Shown piece after piece: positions 37,213 to 53,441 of a DNA stretch of 64,000 nt. The notes below the pieces were generated by a model that was not told where the DNA came from, searched no databases, and worked only from the letters and a program-made list of their open reading frames with translations. Origin of the DNA: Skermanella pratensis (lineage in GTDB: Bacteria > Pseudomonadota > Alphaproteobacteria > Azospirillales > Azospirillaceae); the NCBI RefSeq assembly GCF_008843145.1, contig NZ_CP030265.1, forward strand, positions 2,094,001 to 2,158,000. Reading direction: 5' to 3'. The number at the start of each line of letters is the position of its first letter. The first letter of the stretch is position 1. The position numbers and the translations under genes were made by a program.

Positions 37213-37373
37213 AGATTCCAGCGGCGATCCTACCCTCTCCCCCACGCTCCCGCCCGTCCCAGTAGCCTCTACCCGTGCGACACCGGCGGTGGCAGTCCCA
37301 CACGGGTGGGCTTGACGGCTGTGGCACCTGTGTTCCACTGGCTTAAGCAGCCATGTGGAACCAAGGTCATCGG

Positions 37374-37934
37374 ATGATTGTCGGATACGCCCGCACCTCA
37401 ACCTCTGATCAGGTCGCCGGGTACGAAGACCAGATCGCTCACCTGACGCGGCTCGGCGTCGAGAAGGTTTTCGCCGAGCAGGCCTCGGCCGTCGGAGAGT
37501 GGTCCCAGCTTGCAGCGTGTTTGGACTTCCTGCGGGACGGCGACACGCTGATCGTCACTCGCCTCGACCGCCTGTGCCGCAGCACGGCTCACTTCTGTGA
37601 GGTGTTCGACCGCTTGGAGCGGAAGGGAGCCAAGATCCGCGTCCTCGACCTCGGGATCGACACCAGCAGCCCGACCGGCCGCATGATCGCCGAGATCGTG
37701 GTCGCCGTCGCCGGGTTCGAGCGTCGTCTGCTGCTGGAGCGACAGAAGGTCGGCGTCGCCGCGGCGAAGGCGGCGGGCAAGTACCGAGGTCGCGTGCCTA
37801 CGGCCCGCAGGCGGTTCAATGAGGTACTCGATCTCCATCAGGCCGGTGCCCGGCCGGACGAGATCGCGGCCAAGTTGGCGATCAGCCGGTCGTCGGTGTT
37901 CCGGGCTCTGCGGGAGGCGAGAACGCCGGGGTGA
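37374..37934 (+). CDS. Serine recombinase (resolvase/invertase family)
   Basis: A 186-residue resolvase. The catalytic Ser is in IVGYARTSTSDQVAGYEDQI, the active-site Arg pair in VTRLDRLCRS, and the E helix in VAVAGFERRLLLERQKVGV. The C-terminal end has a Hin-type HTH: RRRFNEVLDLHQAGARPDEI and AISRSSVFRALR. Length and motifs are full for Tn3-type resolvases/invertases. Start at ATG 37374; a longer start adds seven residues. No inverted or res-like site pair was identified apart from the nearby hairpin. Confidence 0.92.
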   Translation: MIVGYARTSTSDQVAGYEDQIAHLTRLGVEKVFAEQASAVGEWSQLAACLDFLRDGDTLIVTRLDRLCRSTAHFCEVFDRLERKGAKIRVLDLGIDTSSPTGRMIAEIVVAVAGFERRLLLERQKVGVAAAKAAGKYRGRVPTARRRFNEVLDLHQAGARPDEIAAKLAISRSSVFRALREARTPG

Positions 37935-39734: not shown

Positions 39735-40066
39735 AGCAGGCATGGGATCGGGGTCTGGCGACATTGTTCAGACCCTCGACCACCCGACTATCAACCATGG
39801 TGAACATGACGAATCAGCCCGTACCAGGTCGTCAGGAATCCAGCGACGACATTCATTGGCACAATGTGGCTGACGTTGGATAATACCGGAAGCCATCCCT
39901 TCCGACAGAGGCCGTCCCATGTCCCTCCTCGGCTCCACCAAACCGGACTCCGATTGGTATGTTCTAGAGCCGATCCAAAGCGGAACCAGTGGTCAGATTG
40001 ACAGCGGCTCGGTCTATGGGACCGTCCTGCATGGACAACTGGATTTGCCGGTGCAGGAGGATCTAC
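39735..40066 (+). other. Intergenic region before the integrase
   Basis: About 330 bases, with a plus-strand frame that continues into the integrase but has poor composition. It ends in the ribosome site GCAGGAGGATCTAC. Probably the integrase promoter and leader; no clear operator seen. Confidence 0.4.
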
Positions 40067-41089
40067 GTGGCAGCGGTTTACAAGCGGGGGCGGACATGGT
40101 GGGTCCGGTTCACATGGCACGGACAGGAGGTCCGAAGGTCAGCCCGAACCTCGTCGAAAGCTGTGGCTCAGCAGTATCTTGCTCAACTGGTTGAGGAACG
40201 CCGACGACTGGACCGAGGCGGCCGTCCCCGTCACACCTTTAATGAGGCTGTCGAGCGATTTATCGGCGAGCACCTTCCATCGCTCAAACCTCTAGCTGCC
40301 CGCCGATACCTCTTCAGCCTAAAGATGTTGAACCCGCACTTCGTCGGGGCCTATCTGGATGAGGTCACGAAGACGAAGATCCTAGCCTATGTCAGCTTCC
40401 GGAGAAAACAGGGCATATCGCCATCAACAATCAGACGCGACCTGGCTTGCCTCTCATCGATGCTGCAACTCGCTATCTCATGGGAGTGGGTTGATGCAAA
40501 TCCGATCCGGACCCTGGACCGGCGACTCTTGAAGGAAGGAGACCCTCGAAGACGCTACCTCAGCCATGAGGAGCAGGAACGGCTTCTCGTTGCGGCAGGG
40601 TCTTATCTCAAGCCGATGGTCTGGTTCGCTATCGAAACCGGTCTTCGCCTGGAGGAGCAACTGTCTCTGGAGTGGTCACAGGTCAACCAGCGGCGTCACG
40701 AACTCACTCTCACCAAAACTAAGACCAGCAATCCAAGAGTGGTCCCCCTCACCGCTCAGGCCGCACAGATCTTGGCACAGCAGCCACGACATCTGACCTC
40801 GCCCTACGTGTTCTGCAAACCAGATGGATCACGGTACCTCAGGCTAACTCGTGGACTGGATGGGGCCGCTACGCGGGCTGGGATAAGCGATCTTCGATGG
40901 CATGATCTCCGCCGGACCTGTGGCTGCCGCCTCCTACAGGACTACGGTATGGACCTATACCGGGTCAGCAAGTGGTTGGGGCACAAGTCGGTTGCCATGA
41001 CCGAAAGGGCCTACGCCTTCCTCAGAGTCGACGACCTGCATGCGGTGATCCGCCCCGGTACAAAGGTCGGCACAGGGAACGCGGATTGA
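40067..41089 (+). CDS. Tyrosine recombinase / phage-type integrase
   Basis: A 340-residue integrase. The N-terminal arm-binding strand reads AVYKRGRTWWVRFTWHGQEV. A core-binding domain follows (about 70-160). The catalytic domain has the first Arg in ETGLRLEEQLSLEW, HxxR in LRWHDLRRTCGCRL, the third His in WLGHKSVAMTERAYAF with the nucleophile Tyr within ERAYAF. All key residues are present. Start at GTG 40067, chosen for its strong ribosome site; a longer frame adds implausible sequence. It lies against the 3' end of tRNA-Met, the usual position of an integrase of a tRNA-targeted element. Confidence 0.95.
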   Translation: MAAVYKRGRTWWVRFTWHGQEVRRSARTSSKAVAQQYLAQLVEERRRLDRGGRPRHTFNEAVERFIGEHLPSLKPLAARRYLFSLKMLNPHFVGAYLDEVTKTKILAYVSFRRKQGISPSTIRRDLACLSSMLQLAISWEWVDANPIRTLDRRLLKEGDPRRRYLSHEEQERLLVAAGSYLKPMVWFAIETGLRLEEQLSLEWSQVNQRRHELTLTKTKTSNPRVVPLTAQAAQILAQQPRHLTSPYVFCKPDGSRYLRLTRGLDGAATRAGISDLRWHDLRRTCGCRLLQDYGMDLYRVSKWLGHKSVAMTERAYAFLRVDDLHAVIRPGTKVGTGNAD

Positions 41090-41156: not shown

Positions 41157-41233
41157 TGGTAGCGGAGGAGGGATTTGAACCCCCGACACAAGGATTATGA
41201 TTCCTCTGCTCTGACCAACTGAGCTACTCCGCC
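41157..41233 (-). tRNA. tRNA-Met (anticodon CAT), elongator type
   Basis: On the minus strand the 77 bases fold as a full tRNA. The acceptor stem GGCGGAG pairs with CTCCGCT, followed by A and an encoded CCA. The anticodon stem GAGGA/TCCTT flanks the loop ATCATAA, giving anticodon CAT. The first acceptor pair is G-T, not the open mismatch of initiator tRNA, and the anticodon stem lacks three G-C pairs, so it is the elongator methionine tRNA (an ile-type CAT modification cannot be excluded by sequence alone). The 3' end faces the integrase. The 300 bases on its 5' side (41234-41542) hold its promoter and no gene. Confidence 0.95.
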
Positions 41234-43100: not shown

Positions 43101-44603
43101 ATGGCCAGCATGGACGCGATACACCGCTCCGACCCCGACCACTCTCGACAGTCCTCGTCCAAGCCTACGGCTTCGTCGGCACGTACCCGGCCCGTGCCGC
43201 TATGCGTGGACATGGACGGCACGCTGCTCAACACCGACAGCCTGATCGAATGCGTCTTCGCCCTGATCAAGGACTGGCGCGTGCTGTTCTCCATGGTCGG
43301 CTGGCTGATCAAGGGCAAGGCGCACTTCAAGCAGCAGCTGGCGCTCCATGCCCGGCTCGACCCGGCGCTGCTGCCTTACAACGCCGGCCTGGTCACTTGG
43401 CTTCACGAGCAGAAGCGGCTCGGACGGAGGCTGATCCTGGCGACCGCGGCGGACCACATCATCGCCGACGCCGTCGCCCGGCACCTCAAGATCTTCGACG
43501 AGGTCATCGCCTCCGACGGGCTCAACAACCTGCGCGGAGCCGCCAAGGCGGAGGCGATCGACCGGCACCTCGACGGCCAGCCCTACGCCTATGCCGGCAA
43601 CGACTTCTCCGACCTGCAGATCTGGCGCCACGCGGACTCCGCCGTCCTGGTCAACGCCCCGAAGAGCGTTTGCAAGGCAGCGGCGGAAATCACCCATATC
43701 GAAGCCCATGTGGACGACCGCGCCCCCTGGACGCGCGCCCTGCTCAAGGCGTTGCGGCCCCACCAGTGGGTCAAGAACGTCCTTGTGTTCGTGCCCATCG
43801 TCACCGCCAGCGCGCTGTTCGATCTCGCGGCCTGGGGCGACGCGGTGCTGATGTTCCTGGCCTTCTGCTGCACCGCCTCGGCCATCTACATGATCAACGA
43901 CCTGACCGACCTCGCGTCGGACCGGCAGCACTACCGCAAGCGCAACCGCCCGTTCGCCAGCGGCGCGCTGCCGCTCTACCATGGTCCGATCGTGGCGCCC
44001 GGGCTGCTGCTGCTGGGCGGGGCGCTCGCCGCCGTCGCCGGTGCCTTCACCGTCGTGGTGCTGTACGCGGTCTGCTCGATCCTCTACTCGTTCAAGCTGA
44101 AGAGCCTGGCGCTGGTCGATCTGTTCATGCTGGCGGCCCTCTACACCATCCGGCTGTTCGGCGGTGGCGAGGCGGCGGGTTATCCGGTTTCGCTCTGGCT
44201 GCTGGCCTTCTCCAGCTTCGTCTTCCTGAGCCTGGCCATCGTCAAGCGCGTCGCCGAACTGATGGCCTTGCCGCCGGAAAACGGAGGTAAGCCCGCGGGA
44301 CGCGGGTATCGCGCCGGGGACATGGATATCCTGCGCCTGATGGGCGTCGCCTCGTCCTTCACCTCGTGCCTGGTGCTCGCCCTCTATGTCCAGTCCGACC
44401 TGGCGCTCGGCCTCAACACGCTGGACGCCCTTTATTGGGCAATCGTGCCGCTGATGCTGTTCTGGCAGTGCCGCATCTGGCTCGCCACCTCGCGCGGCAA
44501 GATGCACGACGATCCCATCGTGTTCGCCGCCAAGGACCCCGTGTCGTGGGTCGTCTGCGGCGCGGTCTTCGCCATCGTCGCCATCGCCCATCTGCCTGTT
44601 TAG
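43101..44603 (+). CDS. HAD phosphatase-UbiA prenyltransferase fusion (DPPR synthase-like)
   Basis: A 500-residue bifunctional protein. The N-terminal HAD domain (about 30-220) has the nucleophile motif CVDMDGTLLNTDS (Asp37/Asp39), ILATAADHII and YAGNDFSDLQIW. The C-terminal UbiA domain (about 235-500) has eight or nine membrane segments and the prenyl-diphosphate motif NDLTDLASDRQHYRKRNRPF near 266. This fusion matches decaprenyl-phosphate phosphoribosyltransferase joined to its product phosphatase: it would move phosphoribose to polyprenyl phosphate and remove the 5-phosphate. Related to Azorhizobium NoeC/NoeH and mycobacterial UbiA. First gene of a four-gene operon. Confidence 0.88.
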   Translation: MASMDAIHRSDPDHSRQSSSKPTASSARTRPVPLCVDMDGTLLNTDSLIECVFALIKDWRVLFSMVGWLIKGKAHFKQQLALHARLDPALLPYNAGLVTWLHEQKRLGRRLILATAADHIIADAVARHLKIFDEVIASDGLNNLRGAAKAEAIDRHLDGQPYAYAGNDFSDLQIWRHADSAVLVNAPKSVCKAAAEITHIEAHVDDRAPWTRALLKALRPHQWVKNVLVFVPIVTASALFDLAAWGDAVLMFLAFCCTASAIYMINDLTDLASDRQHYRKRNRPFASGALPLYHGPIVAPGLLLLGGALAAVAGAFTVVVLYAVCSILYSFKLKSLALVDLFMLAALYTIRLFGGGEAAGYPVSLWLLAFSSFVFLSLAIVKRVAELMALPPENGGKPAGRGYRAGDMDILRLMGVASSFTSCLVLALYVQSDLALGLNTLDALYWAIVPLMLFWQCRIWLATSRGKMHDDPIVFAAKDPVSWVVCGAVFAIVAIAHLPV

Positions 44604-44610
44604 AGGAATC

Positions 44611-45645
44611 GTGACCACTCATCGAATCCCATCCCAGCCGGGCGCGTCCACAGGATCCCGCTCCATGATGCGGCGGGCGGAGTACGGTGCCGTCATCACC
44701 GCGGTGGTCTTCGTCGCGGCCATGACCGCTGCCGGCATCTGGTTCGGCCTGGACGAGGTCTGGCACCGCATGTGGGCGCTCAGCCCCGCCGTCCTCGCCG
44801 GGCTGCTGCTCCTGTCGCTGGTCAACTACGCCTTGCGGGCATGGCGGTGGCACCTGTTCGGCCATCATCTCGGCATCGACGTGCCGGCCGGACGCACCGG
44901 GCTCTACTACGTCGCCGGCTTCGCCATGACCACCACCCCCGGCAAGGTGGGGGAGGCGCTGCGCCTGTGGCTCCTGGAGCGCTGCCACGGCTATCGCTAC
45001 GAGCGCACCGCCCCGCTGCTGATCGGCGACAGGATGGGCGATGCCGTCGCGATCACCCTGCTGTGCCTGACCGGGCTGTCGTCGTTCGGTGCCGCCTACG
45101 GTGCCGGCACCCTGGTGGCGACCGCGGCGCTGGCGGGGGGACTGCTCATGCTGCTGCGGCCTCAGGTCCCGTTGCGCGCCGTGCTGCTGGCCTACGGTCT
45201 GGTCGGGCGCTGGCCGCGCCTGTTCGGCGGCGCCCGCACCGTCGTGCGCAAGACCTCTCGCCTGCTCGATCCCCGTATCTTCGCCCTGACCTCGGCGATG
45301 GGGGTGGTAGGCTGGCTGTGCGAGGCCTATGCGCTGCACTGGCTCCTGACCGACCTGGGCGCCCAGATCACGCTCCAGCAGGCGATCTTCGTGTTCGCCT
45401 TCGCGATGCTGGTCGGCGCCGTCTCCATGCTGCCGGGCGGGCTCGGCGGCACCGAGGCGACCATGTTCGCGCTGCTCACCCTGCTCGGCGTGCCCGCCGA
45501 CACGGCGCTGGCGGCAACCTTGATCATCCGGCTGACCACGCTGTGGTTCGCCGTCGTGCTGGGCTTCGCGGCGCTGCCCGTGGCGCTGAAACTGGCTCGA
45601 CAGCCCGCGGCGGAGCGTCTGGCGACCGCCGACGGAATCAGGTGA
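44611..45645 (+). CDS. Lysylphosphatidylglycerol synthase TM-type flippase-like protein
   Basis: A 344-residue polytopic membrane protein with eight hydrophobic segments. It carries the UPF0104/LPG-synthase transmembrane signature: NYALRAWRWHLFGHHLGI, YVAGFAMTTTPGKVGEALRL, RTAPLLIGDRMGDAVAI and SMLPGGLGGTEATMFALL. The start GTG 44611 follows GAGGAATC. Its place inside the arabinose operon suggests it carries the lipid-linked sugar, or a precursor, across the membrane, but that is inference; the family also includes catalytic and structural members. Confidence 0.87.
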   Translation: MTTHRIPSQPGASTGSRSMMRRAEYGAVITAVVFVAAMTAAGIWFGLDEVWHRMWALSPAVLAGLLLLSLVNYALRAWRWHLFGHHLGIDVPAGRTGLYYVAGFAMTTTPGKVGEALRLWLLERCHGYRYERTAPLLIGDRMGDAVAITLLCLTGLSSFGAAYGAGTLVATAALAGGLLMLLRPQVPLRAVLLAYGLVGRWPRLFGGARTVVRKTSRLLDPRIFALTSAMGVVGWLCEAYALHWLLTDLGAQITLQQAIFVFAFAMLVGAVSMLPGGLGGTEATMFALLTLLGVPADTALAATLIIRLTTLWFAVVLGFAALPVALKLARQPAAERLATADGIR

Positions 45646-45657
45646 GTTATTGATATC

Positions 45658-47007
45658 ATGACTTGGAAGACCATGACCCTGACCGGCTGGGGCCGCACCC
45701 GCCGGGCCGAAGTCGCCGCCTGCCGGCCGGAGCGCGCTCCCGCCGCGGTGAGCACGCTTCAGGGCCGGTTCGAGCACGGCATCCTGGCCCGCGGCCTGGG
45801 CCGGAGCTACGGCGACGCTCCCCTGAACGACGGCGGCAACATCCTGCTGACCGAGCGGCTGAACCGCATGGTCTCGTTCGATCCGGCCGATGGCACCCTG
45901 GTGTGCGAGGCCGGCGTCAGTTTCGACGACCTGCTCACTGCCTTCCTGCCCCGCGGCTTCATGCCGCCGACCTCGCCGGGAACATCCTTCGCCACCGTCG
46001 GCGGCGCCGTCGCCAACGACGTCCACGGCAAGAACCACGACCGCGTCGGCAGCTTCGGCGACCACGTGCTGTGGCTCGACCTGATCCTCCCGTCGGGCGA
46101 GCAGGTGCGCGTCTCCCCGACCGAGCGGCCCGACTTGTTCGCCGCTACCATCGGCGGCGTCGGGCTGACCGGCGTTATCCTCCATGTCTGCTTCCGGCTG
46201 CGCCGGGTCGCCTCCGGCTCGGTCGAGGTGCGGGAGCGGCGGATGCCCGACCTGGACGCTTTCATGGCCGGGCTGGCCGACGCGCGGGAGACCGCCGGCT
46301 ACAGCGTCGGCTGGATCGACGGCATGGCGCGCGGCGGCGCGATGGGACGCGGCATCCTGGAGACCGCGGAGACCGCCCCTGCGGATCCGGCCGGCGCCCC
46401 GCCGAAGGCGCCCGGGAAGCGGGGAGTGCCGGTCGACCTGCCGGGCTTCGCGCTCAACCCGTTCAGCATCAACCTGTTCAACCAGGCCTACTACCGGCGC
46501 GTCCCGGCCGCCGGGCGGACCCGCACCCTGCCGGTGCGCCGTTTCCTTTATCCGCTCGACGCGATCCACGACTGGAACCGGATCTACGGCAAGCGCGGCT
46601 TCTACCAGTTCCAGAACGTCGTGCCCGACGCCCAGGCGCCCGCGGCCCTGCGCAAGCTGCTGGAAGCCATCTCGGACGCCCGCGCCGGATCGTTCCTGGC
46701 GGTGCTCAAGACCCTGGGCGGCGAGGGCAAGGGGCATCTGTCGTTCCCGATGCGGGGCTATACCCTGGCGCTCGACTTCCCCCGGCGCGACGGCGTGGAG
46801 GACCTGCTGGCCCGTCTCGCCGCGATCACCCAGGACCATGGCGGCCGGGTCTATCTCGCCAAGGACGCCGTGCTCGACCCCGCCAGCTTCGCCCGCATGT
46901 ACCCGAAACTGGGAGAGTTCCGCCAAGTGCTCGACCGCATCGATCCCGACCGGCGCATCCAGTCCGACATGTCCCGGCGCCTGGACATCCGCGGGGTGAC
47001 GGCATGA
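45658..47007 (+). CDS. DprE1-like FAD-dependent polyprenylphosphoryl-ribose oxidase
   Basis: A 449-residue vanillyl-alcohol-oxidase-type flavoprotein. The FAD domain shows ILARGLGRSYGDAPLNDGGN, PPTSPGTSFATVGGAVANDV with HGKNHDRVGSFGDHV, and ATIGGVGLTGVI. The substrate domain ends with GGRVYLAKDAV (equivalent of the Lys in the mycobacterial active site) and SDMSRRLDI. The Cys that covalent inhibitors target in mycobacterial DprE1 appears to be Ala371 here (TLALDFP). It should oxidise the 2'-hydroxyl of ribose on the lipid carrier, the first half of epimerisation to D-arabinose. Four-base overlap with the next gene. Confidence 0.9.
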   Translation: MTWKTMTLTGWGRTRRAEVAACRPERAPAAVSTLQGRFEHGILARGLGRSYGDAPLNDGGNILLTERLNRMVSFDPADGTLVCEAGVSFDDLLTAFLPRGFMPPTSPGTSFATVGGAVANDVHGKNHDRVGSFGDHVLWLDLILPSGEQVRVSPTERPDLFAATIGGVGLTGVILHVCFRLRRVASGSVEVRERRMPDLDAFMAGLADARETAGYSVGWIDGMARGGAMGRGILETAETAPADPAGAPPKAPGKRGVPVDLPGFALNPFSINLFNQAYYRRVPAAGRTRTLPVRRFLYPLDAIHDWNRIYGKRGFYQFQNVVPDAQAPAALRKLLEAISDARAGSFLAVLKTLGGEGKGHLSFPMRGYTLALDFPRRDGVEDLLARLAAITQDHGGRVYLAKDAVLDPASFARMYPKLGEFRQVLDRIDPDRRIQSDMSRRLDIRGVTA

Positions 47008-47771
47008 GCGCCCCGACCTGGCTGGTGCTCGGTGCCTCCTCCTCGATCGCCCGCGCCTTCGCGCTGGAGGCCGCGGCCCAGGGCTGCAACGTGATCCTGG
47101 CCGGGCGCGACCGCGACGACCTCGACCGCGGCGCCTCCGACATCCGCATCCGCCACAATGTCGCGGTCACGGCGGTTGACTTCGACGCTGAAGCGGTGGA
47201 TACCCATGATGCATTCGTCAGGGAAGTGACCGGATCGTCCGCCGGCTTCGGCGGTAGCGGGGCCAGTGGTCCGCTGAACGTCTTCCTGGCCTTCGGCCTT
47301 ATGCCGGACCAGTCGGCCATCGACGCCGACCCGGACAAGGCCCAGCGCACCATCATGGCGACATATGCGGGGGCGGTCTCGATCCTGCACCGCCTCGCCC
47401 CGATCCTCGAAGCGCAGGGCAGCGGCCATGTGGTGGCCCTCGGCTCGGTCGCCGGCGACCGCGGGCGGATCAAGAACTACGTCTACGGCTCCGCGAAGGC
47501 GGGGCTGCACGCCTACCTCCAGGGGCTGCGCAACCGCCTGTTCCGCTCCGGCGTGACGGTCACCACCGTCAAGCCGGGCTTCATAGACACGACCATGACT
47601 TGGGGCATGCCGGGGCTGTTCCTGGTGGCCTCGCCGCAGGCCTGCGCCCGCGCCTGCCTGCGCTACGCCGCCAAGGGGGCCGAAGTCCGCTACTTCCCGG
47701 TCTTCTGGTGGATCATCATGACGATCATCCGCTCGATCCCGGAACCAATCTTCAAGCGGCTCAGCATCTAG
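47004..47771 (+). CDS. DprE2-like short-chain dehydrogenase
   Basis: A 255-residue SDR. The NAD(P)-binding motif GASSSIARAF sits at the N-terminus, then the catalytic Ser in VVALGSVAGDRG, Tyr-x-x-x-Lys in NYVYGSAKAGLH and KPGFIDTTMTWGMPG. A C-terminal hydrophobic helix (YFPVFWWIIMTIIRSIPEPI) should hold it at the membrane, as in DprE2. It would reduce the keto intermediate made by the preceding oxidase to the arabinose lipid. ATG 47004 overlaps the stop of the upstream gene in ATGA. Confidence 0.9.
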   Translation: MSAPTWLVLGASSSIARAFALEAAAQGCNVILAGRDRDDLDRGASDIRIRHNVAVTAVDFDAEAVDTHDAFVREVTGSSAGFGGSGASGPLNVFLAFGLMPDQSAIDADPDKAQRTIMATYAGAVSILHRLAPILEAQGSGHVVALGSVAGDRGRIKNYVYGSAKAGLHAYLQGLRNRLFRSGVTVTTVKPGFIDTTMTWGMPGLFLVASPQACARACLRYAAKGAEVRYFPVFWWIIMTIIRSIPEPIFKRLSI

Positions 47772-47779
47772 CCTTGTGC

Positions 47780-47799
47780 GGAGGGGCAGCCGCCCCTCC
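47780..47799. terminator. Hairpin between convergent genes
   Basis: GGAGGGGC and GCCCCTCC form an 8-bp stem around AGCC, between the DprE2-like stop and the FkbM gene stop. No long T run follows, so it is a terminator-like hairpin serving both sides rather than a proven one. Confidence 0.5.
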
Positions 47800-48626
47800 T
47801 ACGACCTGACGCGCTCCGGCGCCCCGGGATCGCGTGTCGCCAGCACGTTCAGGCACTCGCCGAAGCCGGCCGCACCGTCCCGCAAGGCGCCGTCGGGACC
47901 CAACACGTGGCAGGTGAATCCATGCGCACGCAGCCGGTCCAGGATCTCGGCGGCGCCGTAGCCGTACCGGGCGGAGTTCTCGTCGAACAGCTCGATGTAG
48001 ACATTCGATGACACGGACAGGATCCGTGCCGCGCCGTCCAGCACGAACTTCTCGAACCCTTCGACATCTATCTTCAGCAGGTCGATCCGCTCCAGCCCGC
48101 CCAGCAGCGCGTCCAGCGTGGTCAGCGCGACCGCCACCCCGTCGCCGTCCGTCGAGACGAAGTTCATGTCGTCGGCGCGCCGCTGCGAGATCCGGATCGT
48201 TCCCGGCTCCGCCCCGACCGCCACATTGTGGACAGTCACCTGGTCGAAGCCGTTCAATCGCATGTTCTCCCGCAGGAAGCCCGCGATCGTCGGGTTCGCC
48301 TCGATCGCGTGGACCGTGCCGCCGGGGCCGACCCGGGCCGCGGCGGCGGCGGCCAGGGTTCCGACATTGGCCCCGACATCCACATAGGTTGCACCGGGGG
48401 CGAGCAGGCGGGTGACGATCCGCTCGTCAGCCGCCCGTGCGTCCGGGTCGATCCAGTAGGCGCAGGAGACCGAGGACGGGAAGAAGCGCAGCCGGTAGCC
48501 GTCCTTCGGGATGGTGAAGCGGCGGCACAGGCCGGTCTGCCACAGCAGCCGACCCGCCAGGTTGCGGACCGGCCTGTCGCCCCGGATCAGGTCGGCCAGC
48601 CGGCTGGCATAGCGGGAGAGCGCCAT
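47799..48626 (-). CDS. FkbM family methyltransferase
   Basis: A 275-residue SAM-dependent methyltransferase. The SAM site is ATYVDVGANVGTLAAAAAAR with HAIEANPTIAGFL. FkbM motifs follow: GFDQVTVHNVAVGAEPGTI, LLKIDVEGFEKFVLDGA and SNVYIELFDENSARYGY. Start at 48626; the longer frame adds a poor leader. FkbM enzymes O-methylate sugars or polyketides, so a role in modifying a surface glycan, maybe the arabinose-containing one, is possible but unproved. Confidence 0.9.
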   Translation of the reverse strand: MALSRYASRLADLIRGDRPVRNLAGRLLWQTGLCRRFTIPKDGYRLRFFPSSVSCAYWIDPDARAADERIVTRLLAPGATYVDVGANVGTLAAAAAARVGPGGTVHAIEANPTIAGFLRENMRLNGFDQVTVHNVAVGAEPGTIRISQRRADDMNFVSTDGDGVAVALTTLDALLGGLERIDLLKIDVEGFEKFVLDGAARILSVSSNVYIELFDENSARYGYGAAEILDRLRAHGFTCHVLGPDGALRDGAAGFGECLNVLATRDPGAPERVRS

Positions 48627-48633
48627 GACGGGC

Positions 48634-51600
48634 TCAGTACTCCCACTCGTACAGCACGCCGACCCCGGCACCCGAGGTCGTGCCCACGTCGGTGCGGACC
48701 TTCAGGTTGTCGGTCACGTCGATCTCCACCACCACGCGGCTGCCCGCCTCGCCGACCCGCTGTTCCGCACCGACATAGACATCGCGGGAGACGTAGCGGC
48801 CCGCGGCGACTCCGGCTCCCGCCAGCCCTTCGCCCTCTTCGCCGCTCAGAAGCTCCAGCCGGTCCACGCCCAGCGTGTTCCGCAGGTTGTCCAGGATGCC
48901 GGGGCCGCCGCCCACGCCGGCGAGTTGGCCGACGCTCTGGGCGAGCTGCACCGCCTCGATCGCGCTCAGGTCGCTGAACGGCTTGTTGAACAGCACGCGG
49001 GCGATCACCTCGTCCTGCGGCAGCTCCGGCGTGGAAGTCAGCTCGATCCTCGGGTTCGACGCCCGCCCGGTCACCGCGACCACCGCCGTGATGTCGGCGG
49101 TCTGCGCCTGCGCCGCCACGTCCAGCACCGGGTCGGTACTGCCGTCGCCGACGAAGTCGATGTTCACCTGCTGGAACTCGAACCGCTTGGTCAGCAGGTC
49201 GAGCGTCCCGCTGACCAGCCTCAGCCCGCCTCCGACGATCGGCTCCGCCGCGGTGCCGGTCACCTGGATGTCCGACGACAATTCGACATTGAGCCCGCGG
49301 CCCCGGACGAAGATCTGGTTCTGCGCCTCCACCGTCAGGTCGAGGCGGAGCTGGAACGGGGAGGGAGCCTCCTCCGCCGGTCCGCGCGTCGGGATATCGG
49401 CCGTGCCCGGGCGGTTGATTTCCTCCACCTGGATCTCGACCACGCTGGGGGAAGCTGTTCCGGCACCTGGATCTCGGCGCGCTCGATCCGCACCGGGCCC
49501 TGGAGGAGCGGATCGTCGAGCGGCCCGGTCAGGCTCAGCAGCGTGTCGAGCCTGACCGTCGCCAGGTCGATCTGGACCAACTGCGCGTTGCTGGCGCCGA
49601 CCCGGATGTCGAAGGCGCGGGGATCGGTCGGATCGACATTGACCGAGCCGGACGCCTCGACGATGCCGTCGTTCGGTGTCCTGCCGTTGAACTGGTCGAT
49701 GGTCAGCCGGGTGCCGTCGCCGCGCAGGCGCATCACGATGTCGCGGATCACGGTGCCCGCCGCCTGGTTCTCGTAACGGGCGCCGTCGAGCGTGGCCAGG
49801 CCGCCCAGCTGCGGGCTGTCCAGCGACCCGCCGAGGTCGAGGTTCACGTCGAGCCGCCCCTGCGCCCGGTCGCCGGTGGTGGCGAGCAGGTCGTTGAAGG
49901 TGGCCAGTTCCACGTTGCCGCGCAGCGCCCCGGAGACCGGCGCGTTCATCGGCACCTCGAGGGTCAGCGGCTCCTGCCTCAGCACCAGCGGCAGCTCCGC
50001 CGCCAGCCTCATGTCGATGCCGTCGCGCTGCCTGGTCACGGCGTTGCCGTCGAGCGCCAGCCGCCCGTTCCTCCAGCGGCCCGTCGTGGAGATGTCGATG
50101 CCGCTCAGCCCGGCGGCCTCGCCGCCCTCCACGGTCAGGTTGCCGACCCTCAGGTCCAGGTCGGCCCGGGGATCGGCGGTGGTGCCGGCGAAGCTGGCAT
50201 TGCCGTTGACCTGTCCGTCCAGCCCCAGGCCGGGAGCGACCAGTTCCGCCAGGGCCAGCGGCACGCGGGTCAGCGTGGCCGAACCCTCGATCGCGTTCCG
50301 CACCAGCCCGGCGTCGAGCGCGATGCGCCCCTCGTTGCTGGCGAGCAGCAGGCCGCGGACCTCGTACCGGTCCGGACCGATCGTCGCGGTGGCCGGATTG
50401 ACCAGCCGGAACGGCTGCCCGCCATAGGTGCCGTCCAGCCGCTCCAGCCGAAGCCGTTGCAGGTTGCCCTCCCGGGTGAAGCCGCCCGCCAGCGCCACGC
50501 GGGCCGGCTGGGCCGGCGCGCCGGCCTGTCCGCTGGTCCGCGCCTGGAACTCCGCGTCGGCCGGAGTGCCGGAGGCCGAGGCGGTCAGGGTCGCGAGGTC
50601 GGCGCCGCCGGCCGCGATGCCGGAGCCGTCGAGCTTGGCGTCGAACCGCAGGGCGCCCAGCGCGTCGGCCACATCGGCGTTGAGATCGATCCGGTCGGCG
50701 GCCAGCAGGGGACCATCGGGACCGGCGACCAGGATGTTCCGGCCCTGCACCGCGGCGATCGCCGACTGCCGTCCCTGGGGATCGTCCAGCCTGACGTCGA
50801 TCCTGCCGCTGCCGGCCAGCCGCTGCCCGGCAAGGGCGGAGAAGACGCCGAGATCGCGCATGTCCCCGGCAAGCCGTCCCGATGCCGTCATGCGGTCGAG
50901 TGCCACCCGGACGGCACCCGCGACGCGGTTCCGCTCGGCCCCCAGCGATATATCCGACAGGTCGAGCCGCTGACCTTCCAGCGCGAAGCCGGTGCGGGCG
51001 TCCAGCGGCTGCCCGTCCACCACGGCGGAGGCGACCAGGGTGCCGCGCGGGGCGCCGGGCACGCGGGTGGCGCGCAGGCCCACGTCGGCCGTCGGCACGT
51101 TCCGGCCGGCCAGCAGGAGGTTGCGGCCATCCAGGTCGGCCCGCACCTCCAGGGAGTCGAGCGGCCCGGTCGCGGTTCCCTCCAGGGAGGCCGAGCCGGC
51201 GATATCGGTCGCGAGCGGTTCCCTGAGGACGGCGAGGCGCGGCAGGTCGGCCCGCCATCTGGCGTCCAGCCGGTTCTCCCGCAGCGCCCCGGCGGCGGTC
51301 AGCGCCACGTTCCGGCCGTCGATCTTCAGCCTCGGCATGTCGATCGATCCATCGGTCCCGACCGTCACCAGTCCGGCCAGATCGACCTTTTCGCCGGCCA
51401 GCGCGTCGGCGGCCGGCGTGCCGGTGTTCAGGCCGGTGACTCCGCCGGTCAGGTCGGCGCGCACCAGCGTCTCCCGGTTGCCGCCGCTCAGGTCGGCTCG
51501 GACCTGCGCCGCGCCGGCCAGCGGCGTCCCGGCCACCGCGGACAGGCGCGACAGCTCGGGCACGGTCAGGTCGACGTTGCCGGCGATGTCCTGGCCGAAC

Positions 51601-53441
51601 TCGCGCACGGTCGCGGTGCCGGTCAGGCTGCCCACCAGCGCGTTCAGGGCCAGCTGGGTAACCTCGACCGTCCGGGCGGCATCCTGGCTGTTCGCGGCGA
51701 GCCGCAGGGTCACGGCATCGCCCGCCAGGTCGCGCAGCATCGGCTCCAGGGCCGGATCGGTGCTGTTCAGCCCGCGCAGGTCGGCGGTCGCCTCGCCGCG
51801 CAGGATCTGCCCGCCCTGTTCAAGGGCAAGGTCGGTCCGGACGCTGGCGGCGCCCGCTACCGGCACGTCGGGCAGGCGGGCGAGGTCGGGGATGTCAAGC
51901 ACCACCTGCGCGCCGACGGCGTCTCCCCAGCGCTCGACCAGCGCCGTGGCGCCGACGCTGCCGGCGGCGGTGTTCGCGCGCAGGTCGGCGACGCGGATCT
52001 CGCCCGAGCCGGGCGTCACGACGGCGTTGCCCGCGATCGTCACCTCCTGGCCGGCGACCTGCGCGATCCGCGGATCGTCGGGGGACCTGGGGTTCACCAG
52101 GGTCCCGTTCAGCGTGACGTCCATGTTGGAGCCGGGCTGGTCGAGCGGGCCGGACGGGACCGCGCGGAGTTGCAGCACCGCCCGGTCCAGCGCCGCCTGG
52201 GCTGCATCGACCGCCACGGCCGTCAGGTCTGCCGTGACCGTGGGCGCCGCGACCGGTCCTTCCGCCGTACCGGCGAGCCGGACCGACTGCCAGGCCACGT
52301 CGGGCGCCAGCGTCCGGAGCGCCGAATCGGCTCCCGCCTCCAGGGCGTAGTCGAAGTCCAGCGCCTGCGGGTCGAACCGGTAGCTGCCGGACAGCTCCGC
52401 CGTCCCGGCGGCCAGGGTGACCCGGGCCGGGGTCAGGGTCACCCCGCGGTTGGGATCGATCACGGATTCGGCCGAGAACCCGACCGTTTCGCCGACCAGG
52501 GCCGCGGCCTGGGGATCGAGCAGGCGGGCGAAGGCGGAGTCGCCGCGGATGATCATCCCGTATCCCTGGGCGCCCTCCGCGACCTCGACGCCGCGGATCG
52601 TCGCGTCGGCACCGATGCGGGCGACGTCGCCGGCATTTCCATCAAGCCGGCCTTCCCAGCCGGACAGCGGACCGGAGCCCCGCAGGGCGACATTGACCGG
52701 TGGCAGCCCCGGTATGCCGGCAGCCCGAGCGATCACGCCGCCCTCCGGCTCTTCGACCGTCAGGTCCAGGTCGAGCAGGTTGGTGTCCGGCGCGTAGTTC
52801 AGCGCCAGCTTGCCGCCGCCGGGCCTGTCCAGGCGTTCGATGTTCAGGTCGGCGCCCAGGCCCGCGTCGGCCCGGCCGAGCCTGGCGCTGCCGTTTATGC
52901 CCAGGATGGCCGCTTCGCCGCCGAGGACGGGAGCGCCCAGGTGCAGCTCCTTGACCGCCAGATGCCGCAGGTCCAGGCCGACGGGCAGGTCGGGGATCTG
53001 GGGAAGGGAGAAGGGCTCGTCGTCGGGCGGTTCCTCGGGCTGTCCCGCCGGCAGGCGGTCGACGTCCATCCGGTTGATGTCGAAACCCGATATCCGGAAC
53101 TCGCGGCGGAACAGGGCGCCGGCGGCCCAGTCCAGCTTCGCCTCGTCGACCTTGAGCCAGATACCCTCGTCGTCGGCGATGGCCAGGTCGTACAGGGTCA
53201 CGTCCAGGCTCCAGCTCGAACTGACACGGCCGATCGTCACGGTGCGGCCGGGGCCGCTCAGCAGGTTCTGGACCTGGCGGGTGATCCAGCCGGGATCCTG
53301 CTGCCCGGACTCCTCCTGGGCCATGACGGCGATCGGCGCGCCCGCGAACATACCAACCAGCAGCAGCGCGGCACCCACCGACGAACCAGACCTTCCATGA
53401 ATTCCCGCCTTGCCATAGTTCCATATGCCAGGGCGAAACAC
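48634..53441 (-). CDS. tamB: TamB-like translocation/assembly module protein, one frameshift
   Basis: A giant protein of about 1600 residues. An N-terminal hydrophobic anchor (SVGAALLLVGMFAGAPIAV) is followed by a long run of beta-rich repeats, each with pieces like LDLTVEEP, VRADLSGG and VNGNASFAG. The C-terminal DUF490/TamB domain is clear: NQIFVRGRGLNVELSSDIQV, SGTLDLLTKRFEFQQVNIDF, NPRIELTSTPELPQDEVIAR and LFNKPFSDLSAIEAVQLAQS. It forms a lipid-carrying bridge across the periplasm to the outer membrane. The domain sits in a shifted frame: one more C in the run at 49447-49451 (+ strand G run) joins VPEQLPP to SVVEIQVEEI. No TamA gene is next to it. Confidence 0.9.

Follow-up and report, generated by a model that had tools for sequence, protein, structure and literature searches.

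A predicted operon for a lipid-linked D-arabinofuranose donor in Skermanella pratensis, with a candidate flippase in the operon and candidate transferases encoded elsewhere

D-arabinose is best known from the cell wall of the tuberculosis bacterium. Here we describe a four-gene operon of the alphaproteobacterium Skermanella pratensis, which, judged from homology, very probably makes a lipid-linked D-arabinofuranose (D-Araf) donor. Its second gene encodes a membrane protein of the LPG_synthase_TM/UPF0104 family (LPG_TM in the following) that is probably the flippase of this donor, given that the donor is made; that the operon synthesises the donor and LPG_TM also flips it, both taken together, we regard as fairly probable. 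The operon is located at positions 43101-47771 on the forward strand of the window, i.e., the whole analysed stretch of 64,000 nucleotides (NCBI RefSeq assembly GCF_008843145.1, contig NZ_CP030265.1, positions 2,094,001 to 2,158,000), in a genome that consists of one 5.87-Mb contig. The donor chemistry is ordinary. What is new is that the LPG_TM/UPF0104 flippase family is tied to the D-arabinose donor pathway, and that a cluster of candidate transferase and arabinanase genes completes the pathway in relatives; two members of this cluster, the undescribed family GTC570 and a GT87 protein, are candidate D-Araf transferases encoded in trans in S. pratensis.

The donor-synthesis genes

A sequence-only reading had placed four donor-pathway genes consecutively on one strand, and all four open reading frames and their families were confirmed in that order. 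It had also described them as partly overlapping, which is correct for the DprE1- and DprE2-like genes (4 bp), but not for the two junctions before them, which are gaps of 7 and then 12 bp. In each of the five Skermanella genomes examined (S. pratensis and G078-G081), the same four genes are flanked by mnmA and tamB, with a DprE1 identity of 84-93% between S. pratensis and the other four, and since the site is the same in 5/5 genomes of the genus, the operon is not a chance arrangement. In the window, the flanking mnmA and TamB genes were identified by Pfam. The best named DprE1 match is that of Skermanella aerolata with 84%, among the 80 top-scoring of at least 588 relatives.

The first gene (43101-44603, +; 500 amino acids) encodes a fusion of an N-terminal HAD half (PF12710, 3.4e-07) with a DMDGT motif at residue 37 and a C-terminal UbiA half (PF01040, 1.2e-11) with the motif NDLTDLASD at residue 266. 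The suggested fusion of phosphatase and phosphoribosyltransferase is therefore borne out by two Pfam domains in one protein and by a match of 565 bits to NCBIfam PRK08238 (cutoff 351). Moreover, residues 212-389 of the UbiA half match the solved decaprenyl-phosphate phosphoribosyltransferase 8j8j (1.1e-26). The third gene (45658-47007, +) encodes a DprE1-like flavin adenine dinucleotide (FAD) oxidase (FAD_binding_4 2e-21, ALO 9.9e-06), which aligns with mycobacterial DprE1 from the PDB over residues 6-444 (2.6e-76) and retains VHGKNH at residue 122 (HGK motif) and YLAKD at residue 399 (FAD-lysine motif). The fourth gene (47004-47771, +) encodes a DprE2-like short-chain dehydrogenase/reductase (adh_short 2.7e-26) with 264 bits against PRK07102 and a YGSAK motif at residue 161. 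Ala371 of the DprE1-like protein is aligned with the residue of mycobacterial DprE1 that we take to be Cys387, the benzothiazinone target. Benzothiazinones act covalently on DprE1, and it is therefore predicted that covalent benzothiazinones miss the Skermanella enzyme.

According to the proposed pathway, the UbiA half would transfer 5-phosphoribose from phosphoribosyl pyrophosphate onto polyprenyl phosphate and the fused HAD half would strip the 5-phosphate, after which DprE1 would oxidise C2 and DprE2 would reduce it back inverted, leading to polyprenyl-phosphoryl-D-arabinofuranose. The homology to mycobacterial DprE1 and to a solved decaprenyl-phosphate phosphoribosyltransferase agrees with the earlier proposal of lipid-linked D-arabinose synthesis. 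The phosphatase-transferase fusion and the donor pathway themselves are already known, as an NCBI family exists and such an enzyme is described in an excerpt of Kelly 2024 (PMC11127046).

In other bacteria the phosphatase slot is modular like the flippase slot described below. A DUF212 (divergent PAP2) gene is found at five loci, none of them with a HAD match, although for one of these, L040, the HAD status is not judgeable at the contig edge where the locus ends; DUF212 is thus a candidate alternative 5-phosphatase. Such genes are located at 11088-11510 of L081, 8430-9431 of L120 and 3856-4266 of L040, loci whose UbiA shows no HAD. At two further loci, L121 (genome G047) and L122 (G050), DprE1 and DprE2 of the same clade occur with no UbiA or LPG_TM gene detected nearby.

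The membrane protein as candidate flippase

The second gene of the operon (44611-45645, +) encodes 344 amino acids with a PF03706 match of 1.1e-46. The idea of a built-in flippase, at first guessed from the family, is now strengthened by recurring adjacency to DprE1, by the fold of the predicted structure and by Wzx genes at four sister loci. The AlphaFold2 model of LPG_TM, made from an alignment of 36 sequences, has a mean predicted local distance difference test score (pLDDT) of 88.2, and compared by VIA-align it matches the flippase domain of MprF with Z 20.9-22.5, the best match being 6lvf (Z 22.5, 275 residues, root-mean-square deviation 3.8, 18% identity); besides MprF no fold was found above Z 5.4, the value of the next unrelated chain. 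As modelled, LPG_TM thus has the MprF flippase-domain fold, and fold alone does not reveal the substrate. LPG_TM would flip polyprenyl-phosphoryl-D-arabinofuranose to the periplasm.

To follow this linkage, DprE1 loci were collected from a genome scan, of which the 80 top-scoring of at least 588 relatives were kept, and from the order, in which 36 of 82 genomes have DprE1 matches and the stretches around all 38 matches outside S. pratensis were taken. Genes at the relatives' loci were called by a simple third-position-GC caller rather than a full gene finder, and the family names Rhodobacteraceae and Acetobacteraceae given to loci are partly our own presumption. L118 and L136, which share contigs with L035 and L093, respectively, were left out of the counts, L153 has no DprE1, and the near-copies L041/L042, L097/L104 and L093/L140 were kept. 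The DprE1 tree has 117 rows, 92 of which are well flanked (3 kb or more on each side), and the even-handed counts of flippase and Flp genes refer to well-flanked loci only. In 34 of these 92 rows, LPG_TM is encoded no more than 3.5 kb from DprE1, whereas four rows have Wzx and 54 have neither flippase. Adding ten short-flanked rows with LPG_TM gives 44/102 with LPG_TM, 4 with Wzx and 54 with neither, while 15 short-flanked rows without a flippase match were not judged. On this 102-row set, the LPG_TM label requires 12 changes on the tree compared to a mean of 33.2 after shuffling, and none of 500 shuffles was as low. As many as 38 of the 44 LPG_TM rows fall into one 59-row clade, and the others are a separate Bacillota clade (three rows), in which LPG_TM beside DprE1 recurs outside the Proteobacteria, and three scattered loci. 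With a limit of 6.5 kb and no flank rule, LPG_TM is found at 39/73 loci with a DprE1 of at least 360 bits and at 6/43 loci below that score. A Wzx/MOP flippase replaces LPG_TM at the Acetobacteraceae loci L044 (by Pfam) and L047, L049 and L052 (by similarity to that of L044), and a fifth locus of this group, L046, has neither. Polyprenyl-phosphate-sugar flippases are mostly assigned without an assay, and tying the widespread LPG_TM/UPF0104 family to one substrate makes such an assignment testable.

Transferase candidates encoded in trans

It had been stated that no arabinosyltransferase is nearby. This holds for the locus, where neither the operon nor the gene that follows it downstream was found to encode a GT136-type or GT-C transferase, but not for the genome, in which two proteins encoded at 4.487 Mb are candidates. 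GTC570 is a family of membrane proteins of about 570 amino acids that recurs near the operon at L120, L124 and L040. A profile built from five members matches S. pratensis at 4487338-4488950 with 668 bits, followed by a gene for a GT87 protein (locus L156; PF09594 114 bits, cutoff 25). The pair, which is the same as in L124, thus lies at approximately 4.486-4.489 Mb and 2.3 Mb from the operon. According to our proposal GTC570 and GT87 would transfer D-Araf in the periplasm to an outer glycan, and taken by itself, the assignment of this pair as the D-Araf transferases of S. pratensis is one towards which we lean only slightly.

GTC570 exceeds 600 bits in 7/82 genomes of the order (eight genes), all other matches being at most 221 bits, and in a sample of the class S. 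pratensis alone passes 1e-100 (1/385). GT87 adjoins GTC570 at 8/8 loci examined, seven of the order and L040. At five of these eight (G052, G054, G055, G067 and L040), DUF4185 and LPG_TM genes are located in the same stretch; the remaining three are Skermanella copies, whose LPG_TM sits in the operon. In G067, LPG_TM lies with GTC570, GT87 and DUF4185, and HAD-UbiA, DprE1 and DprE2 are elsewhere in the genome, so that the arrangement resembles a single system with parts repeatedly split apart and rejoined. DprE1 of the operon's clade (clade A) and GTC570 occur together in six genomes, DprE1 only in six, GTC570 only in one and neither in 69.

The S. pratensis pair is surrounded by a glycan island (L156, 2480-18251) that encodes GT4, a beta-helix/CBM60/RTX protein, GtrA, GT2 and a 655-residue membrane protein without a Pfam match. 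A profile comparison of GTC570 with GT87 gave no match and thus no support for a relationship of the two.

GH183 and D-arabinan in relatives

DUF4185 corresponds to GH183, for which endo-D-arabinofuranase activity is published (PMC10115798, in excerpt). Strong DUF4185 matches (146-162 bits) are present in 4/82 genomes of the order, and five weak matches occur in other genomes. All four strong matches lie within GTC570-GT87 clusters, and relatives with this cluster therefore likely make D-arabinan. In the class sample, 0/385 genomes match at 1e-15, but as the controls were silent too, this number rests on the model having worked in the order search. The DUF4185 protein of L124 matches solved endo-alpha-D-arabinanases (8hhv, 4.3e-11), and its Asp104 (DLG) and Asp121 (FGDT) are invariant in 5/5 cluster proteins; from their spacing we infer that they may be the published catalytic pair. 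In relatives with the GH183 endo-D-arabinanase the product would thus probably be a D-arabinan chain. A D-arabinan of alpha-D-Araf (1->5)/(1->2) repeats is reported from the alphaproteobacterium Devosia submarina (PMC8707391, in excerpt). The GTC570-GT87-GH183 cluster provides candidate D-arabinan genes outside the Mycobacteriales, in environmental bacteria. More tentatively, these parts may form a whole alphaproteobacterial D-arabinan machine, with HAD-UbiA, DprE1/E2, an MprF-like flippase, GTC570 and GT87, and trimming by GH183, whose transferases and flippase are independent of the mycobacterial ones. The same tentative view holds that the machine is whole in some relatives of the same order and scattered in Skermanella, and that in Rhodobacteraceae the donor module came to serve Flp pili. 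If this is true, D-arabinans of Gram-negative bacteria, for instance the one from Devosia, would have a genetic basis.

Linkage to Flp pili

In the Rhodobacteraceae-type clade (30 rows), 21 loci extend 5.5 kb or more downstream, and 18 of these have genes for Flp pilin and/or CpaB in that stretch; if two positives among nine short-flanked loci are counted, the number is 20/23. An SLT-domain protein is often encoded between the donor and Flp genes (by Pfam for L060, by similarity elsewhere). The upstream neighbours vary between loci, and therefore the Flp link exceeds frozen synteny, although shared ancestry may play a part. Within the range L055-L095, the donor genes adjoin those for Flp pilin and CpaB/CpaC at the 18 of 21 well-flanked loci given above. 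Modification of Flp pili as a use of D-Araf at these loci is a lead, and the same donor is possibly used on the Flp pili of Rhodobacteraceae-type bacteria. In a paper on the Tad pili of Rhodobacterales (PMC8383342), arabin-, decaprenyl, glycosyl or UbiA terms are not mentioned. For S. pratensis itself the Flp pilin was rejected as acceptor, as its genome has no Flp_Fap match (the Caulobacter control was positive; other pilin families were not searched).

Alternative explanations

Several observations weigh against the reading proposed here, and they are considered together with the explanations that they would favour. It is very improbable that DprE1 and DprE2 act on another lipid-linked sugar or that the donor stays ribose. 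Both proteins are below the NCBI equivalog cutoffs (DprE1-like 410 bits against NF053785, cutoff 500; DprE2-like 178 bits against NF053786, cutoff 250), and in G055 the GTC570-GT87-DUF4185 genes occur with LPG_TM and HAD-UbiA, the sole DprE1 match being at another locus. However, on sequence grounds both are clear relatives of these model families, the alignment with mycobacterial DprE1 and its two retained motifs argue for the same chemistry, and so does the endo-D-arabinanase co-located in relatives. Unlikely, though less so, is a situation in which the donor is made but LPG_TM moves another lipid or assists the enzymes, and GtrA, Wzx or a second LPG_TM flips the donor. MprF, which has the same fold, moves phospholipids (PMC12713373, in excerpt), the S. 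pratensis genome has a second LPG_TM gene at 4.817 Mb as well as GtrA in a trio of GT2, GtrA and membrane protein genes near GTC570, and 58/92 well-flanked DprE1 rows are without LPG_TM. At the Rhodobacteraceae-type loci L060, L067, L072 and L078, the slot has no open reading frame with at least two hydrophobic segments, which weighs against a strict LPG_TM rule. In favour of LPG_TM as flippase of the donor, its gene is the second of the operon with short gaps on both sides, it is found repeatedly with DprE1, in Bacillota as well as in Pseudomonadota, and lies with the transferase candidates in G067, and four loci without it encode Wzx.

Regarding the last step, GTC570 and GT87 of S. pratensis may use another donor (e.g., a hexose) or decay, with a different enzyme transferring D-Araf in Skermanella, which we consider somewhat unlikely. 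GTC570 has no convincing Pfam match, no PDB match and no profile match to GT87, the label GT-C-like is based solely on its neighbours, a count of 6-11 hydrophobic segments and an acidic loop with the consensus PPxFDYPNH, and its structure model is poor (pLDDT 47.9). In the S. pratensis copy a frame break places the last approximately 55 residues (from about 482-492 of the G079 copy) in another frame, the pair is 2.3 Mb away from the operon near genes that we take to be transposase-like, and four PMT_2 loci are present elsewhere in the genome. Furthermore, two of the five Skermanella genomes (G078 and G081) have the operon without a strong GTC570, and among 14 genomes with related loci (11 Rhodobacteraceae-type, three Acetobacteraceae) GTC570 is weak in three (75-110 bits) and not found in 11, so that these bacteria must use a different transferase. 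For the joint occurrence of clade-A DprE1 and GTC570 the Fisher p is 1.7e-5, a value that ignores relatedness. Against this alternative, in G052, G054, G055, G067 and L040 the pair is found beside the operon or its flippase, accompanied in each case by an endo-D-arabinanase gene, longer uninterrupted copies of GTC570 exist in G079 and G080, and because the TamB-like gene of the window is broken as well, assembly indels are possible. That D-Araf would end up modifying a pilus, as it does in Pseudomonas paraeruginosa, and not in a polysaccharide, appears quite improbable. The Flp pilin and CpaB genes beside 18/21 Rhodobacteraceae-type loci would fit with it, as would the alpha-1,5 D-Araf on the type IV pilin of P. 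paraeruginosa (PMC12369383, in excerpt), but the S. pratensis genome lacks the Flp_Fap match mentioned above, and a chain product agrees with the GH183 gene that accompanies the transferase candidates in relatives. DUF4185 has no match in S. pratensis, and for this genome therefore only a D-Araf-containing glycan is claimed.

Genomic setting of the operon

The operon lies in DNA with a GC content of 0.65-0.705 (2-kb bins), to the right of a stretch with lower GC. This left part of the window (1-41233; 0.56-0.63 versus approximately 0.70) contains a resolvase gene at 37353-37934 and ends with a phage-type integrase gene (39989-41089) beside a tRNA-Met gene (41157-41233), and it is probably an integrated island. 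On the other side, an FkbM-family methyltransferase gene (47799-48671, -) converges on the operon. It is found at the same place in the Skermanella loci L115, L116 and L035 and was not detected in L117, and its product could be unrelated to the operon or glycan-modifying. The TamB-like gene (48634-53441, -) is split between two frames near 49443-49449, and it is in one frame in G079. A promoter scan gave no site (shuffles 0.6), a terminator scan three (shuffles 1.8, standard deviation 1.3) and a repeat search only short imperfect matches without a chance estimate; none of these was used for any conclusion.

Comparison with known systems

The mycobacterial pathway to decaprenylphosphoryl-arabinose (Rv3806c, Rv3807c, DprE1, DprE2, Rv3789) has homologous UbiA, DprE1 and DprE2 proteins, for which the same reactions are proposed here, and the homologues of DprE1 and DprE2 are adjacent in S. 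pratensis, albeit below the equivalog cutoffs. GH183 endo-D-arabinanases are present in mycobacteria as in the relatives of Skermanella. In contrast to mycobacteria, the HAD phosphatase is fused instead of separate, LPG_TM takes the place of the SMR-type Rv3789, Ala371 is aligned with Cys387 of DprE1, and GTC570 and GT87 belong to families other than Emb/Aft. In Azorhizobium the noe genes, among them donor-synthesis genes of the same classes, are said to arabinosylate Nod factors.

The operon also resembles three-component periplasmic pentofuranose systems, in which a phosphoribosyltransferase with a HAD-type phosphatase is combined with a lipid-linked pentofuranose, a flippase and a separate membrane transferase. 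According to the excerpt of Kelly 2024 (PMC11127046), the system of Citrobacter youngae O1/O2 consists of PPPRS, MATE and GT136, its enzyme carries both phosphoribosyltransferase and HAD-type phosphatase domains, and DprE1/E2 homologues accompany Araf-containing glycans. Unlike in C. youngae, the membrane gene of the operon is LPG_TM/UPF0104 and not MATE, the transferase candidates of Skermanella are encoded away from the locus, and GH183 is present in relatives. The fold of LPG_TM is that of MprF and other PF03706 flippases (Z 22.5), yet LPG_TM has no synthase domain and sits in a sugar-donor operon. In the titles and abstract openings covered by literature searches, supplements excluded, neither an LPG_TM flippase with DprE1/UbiA nor alphaproteobacterial D-arabinan genes are described. 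As in P. paraeruginosa (PSPA7_6245-6251, TfpW/TfpX; excerpt of PMC12369383), D-Araf would be part of a surface glycan of a Gram-negative bacterium; TfpW is encoded there beside pilA, whereas the genome of S. pratensis has no Flp pilin match, other pilins not having been searched. Finally, the D-arabinan of Devosia submarina (excerpt of PMC8707391), which is known chemically, is the same kind of product as the one proposed for the relatives of Skermanella.

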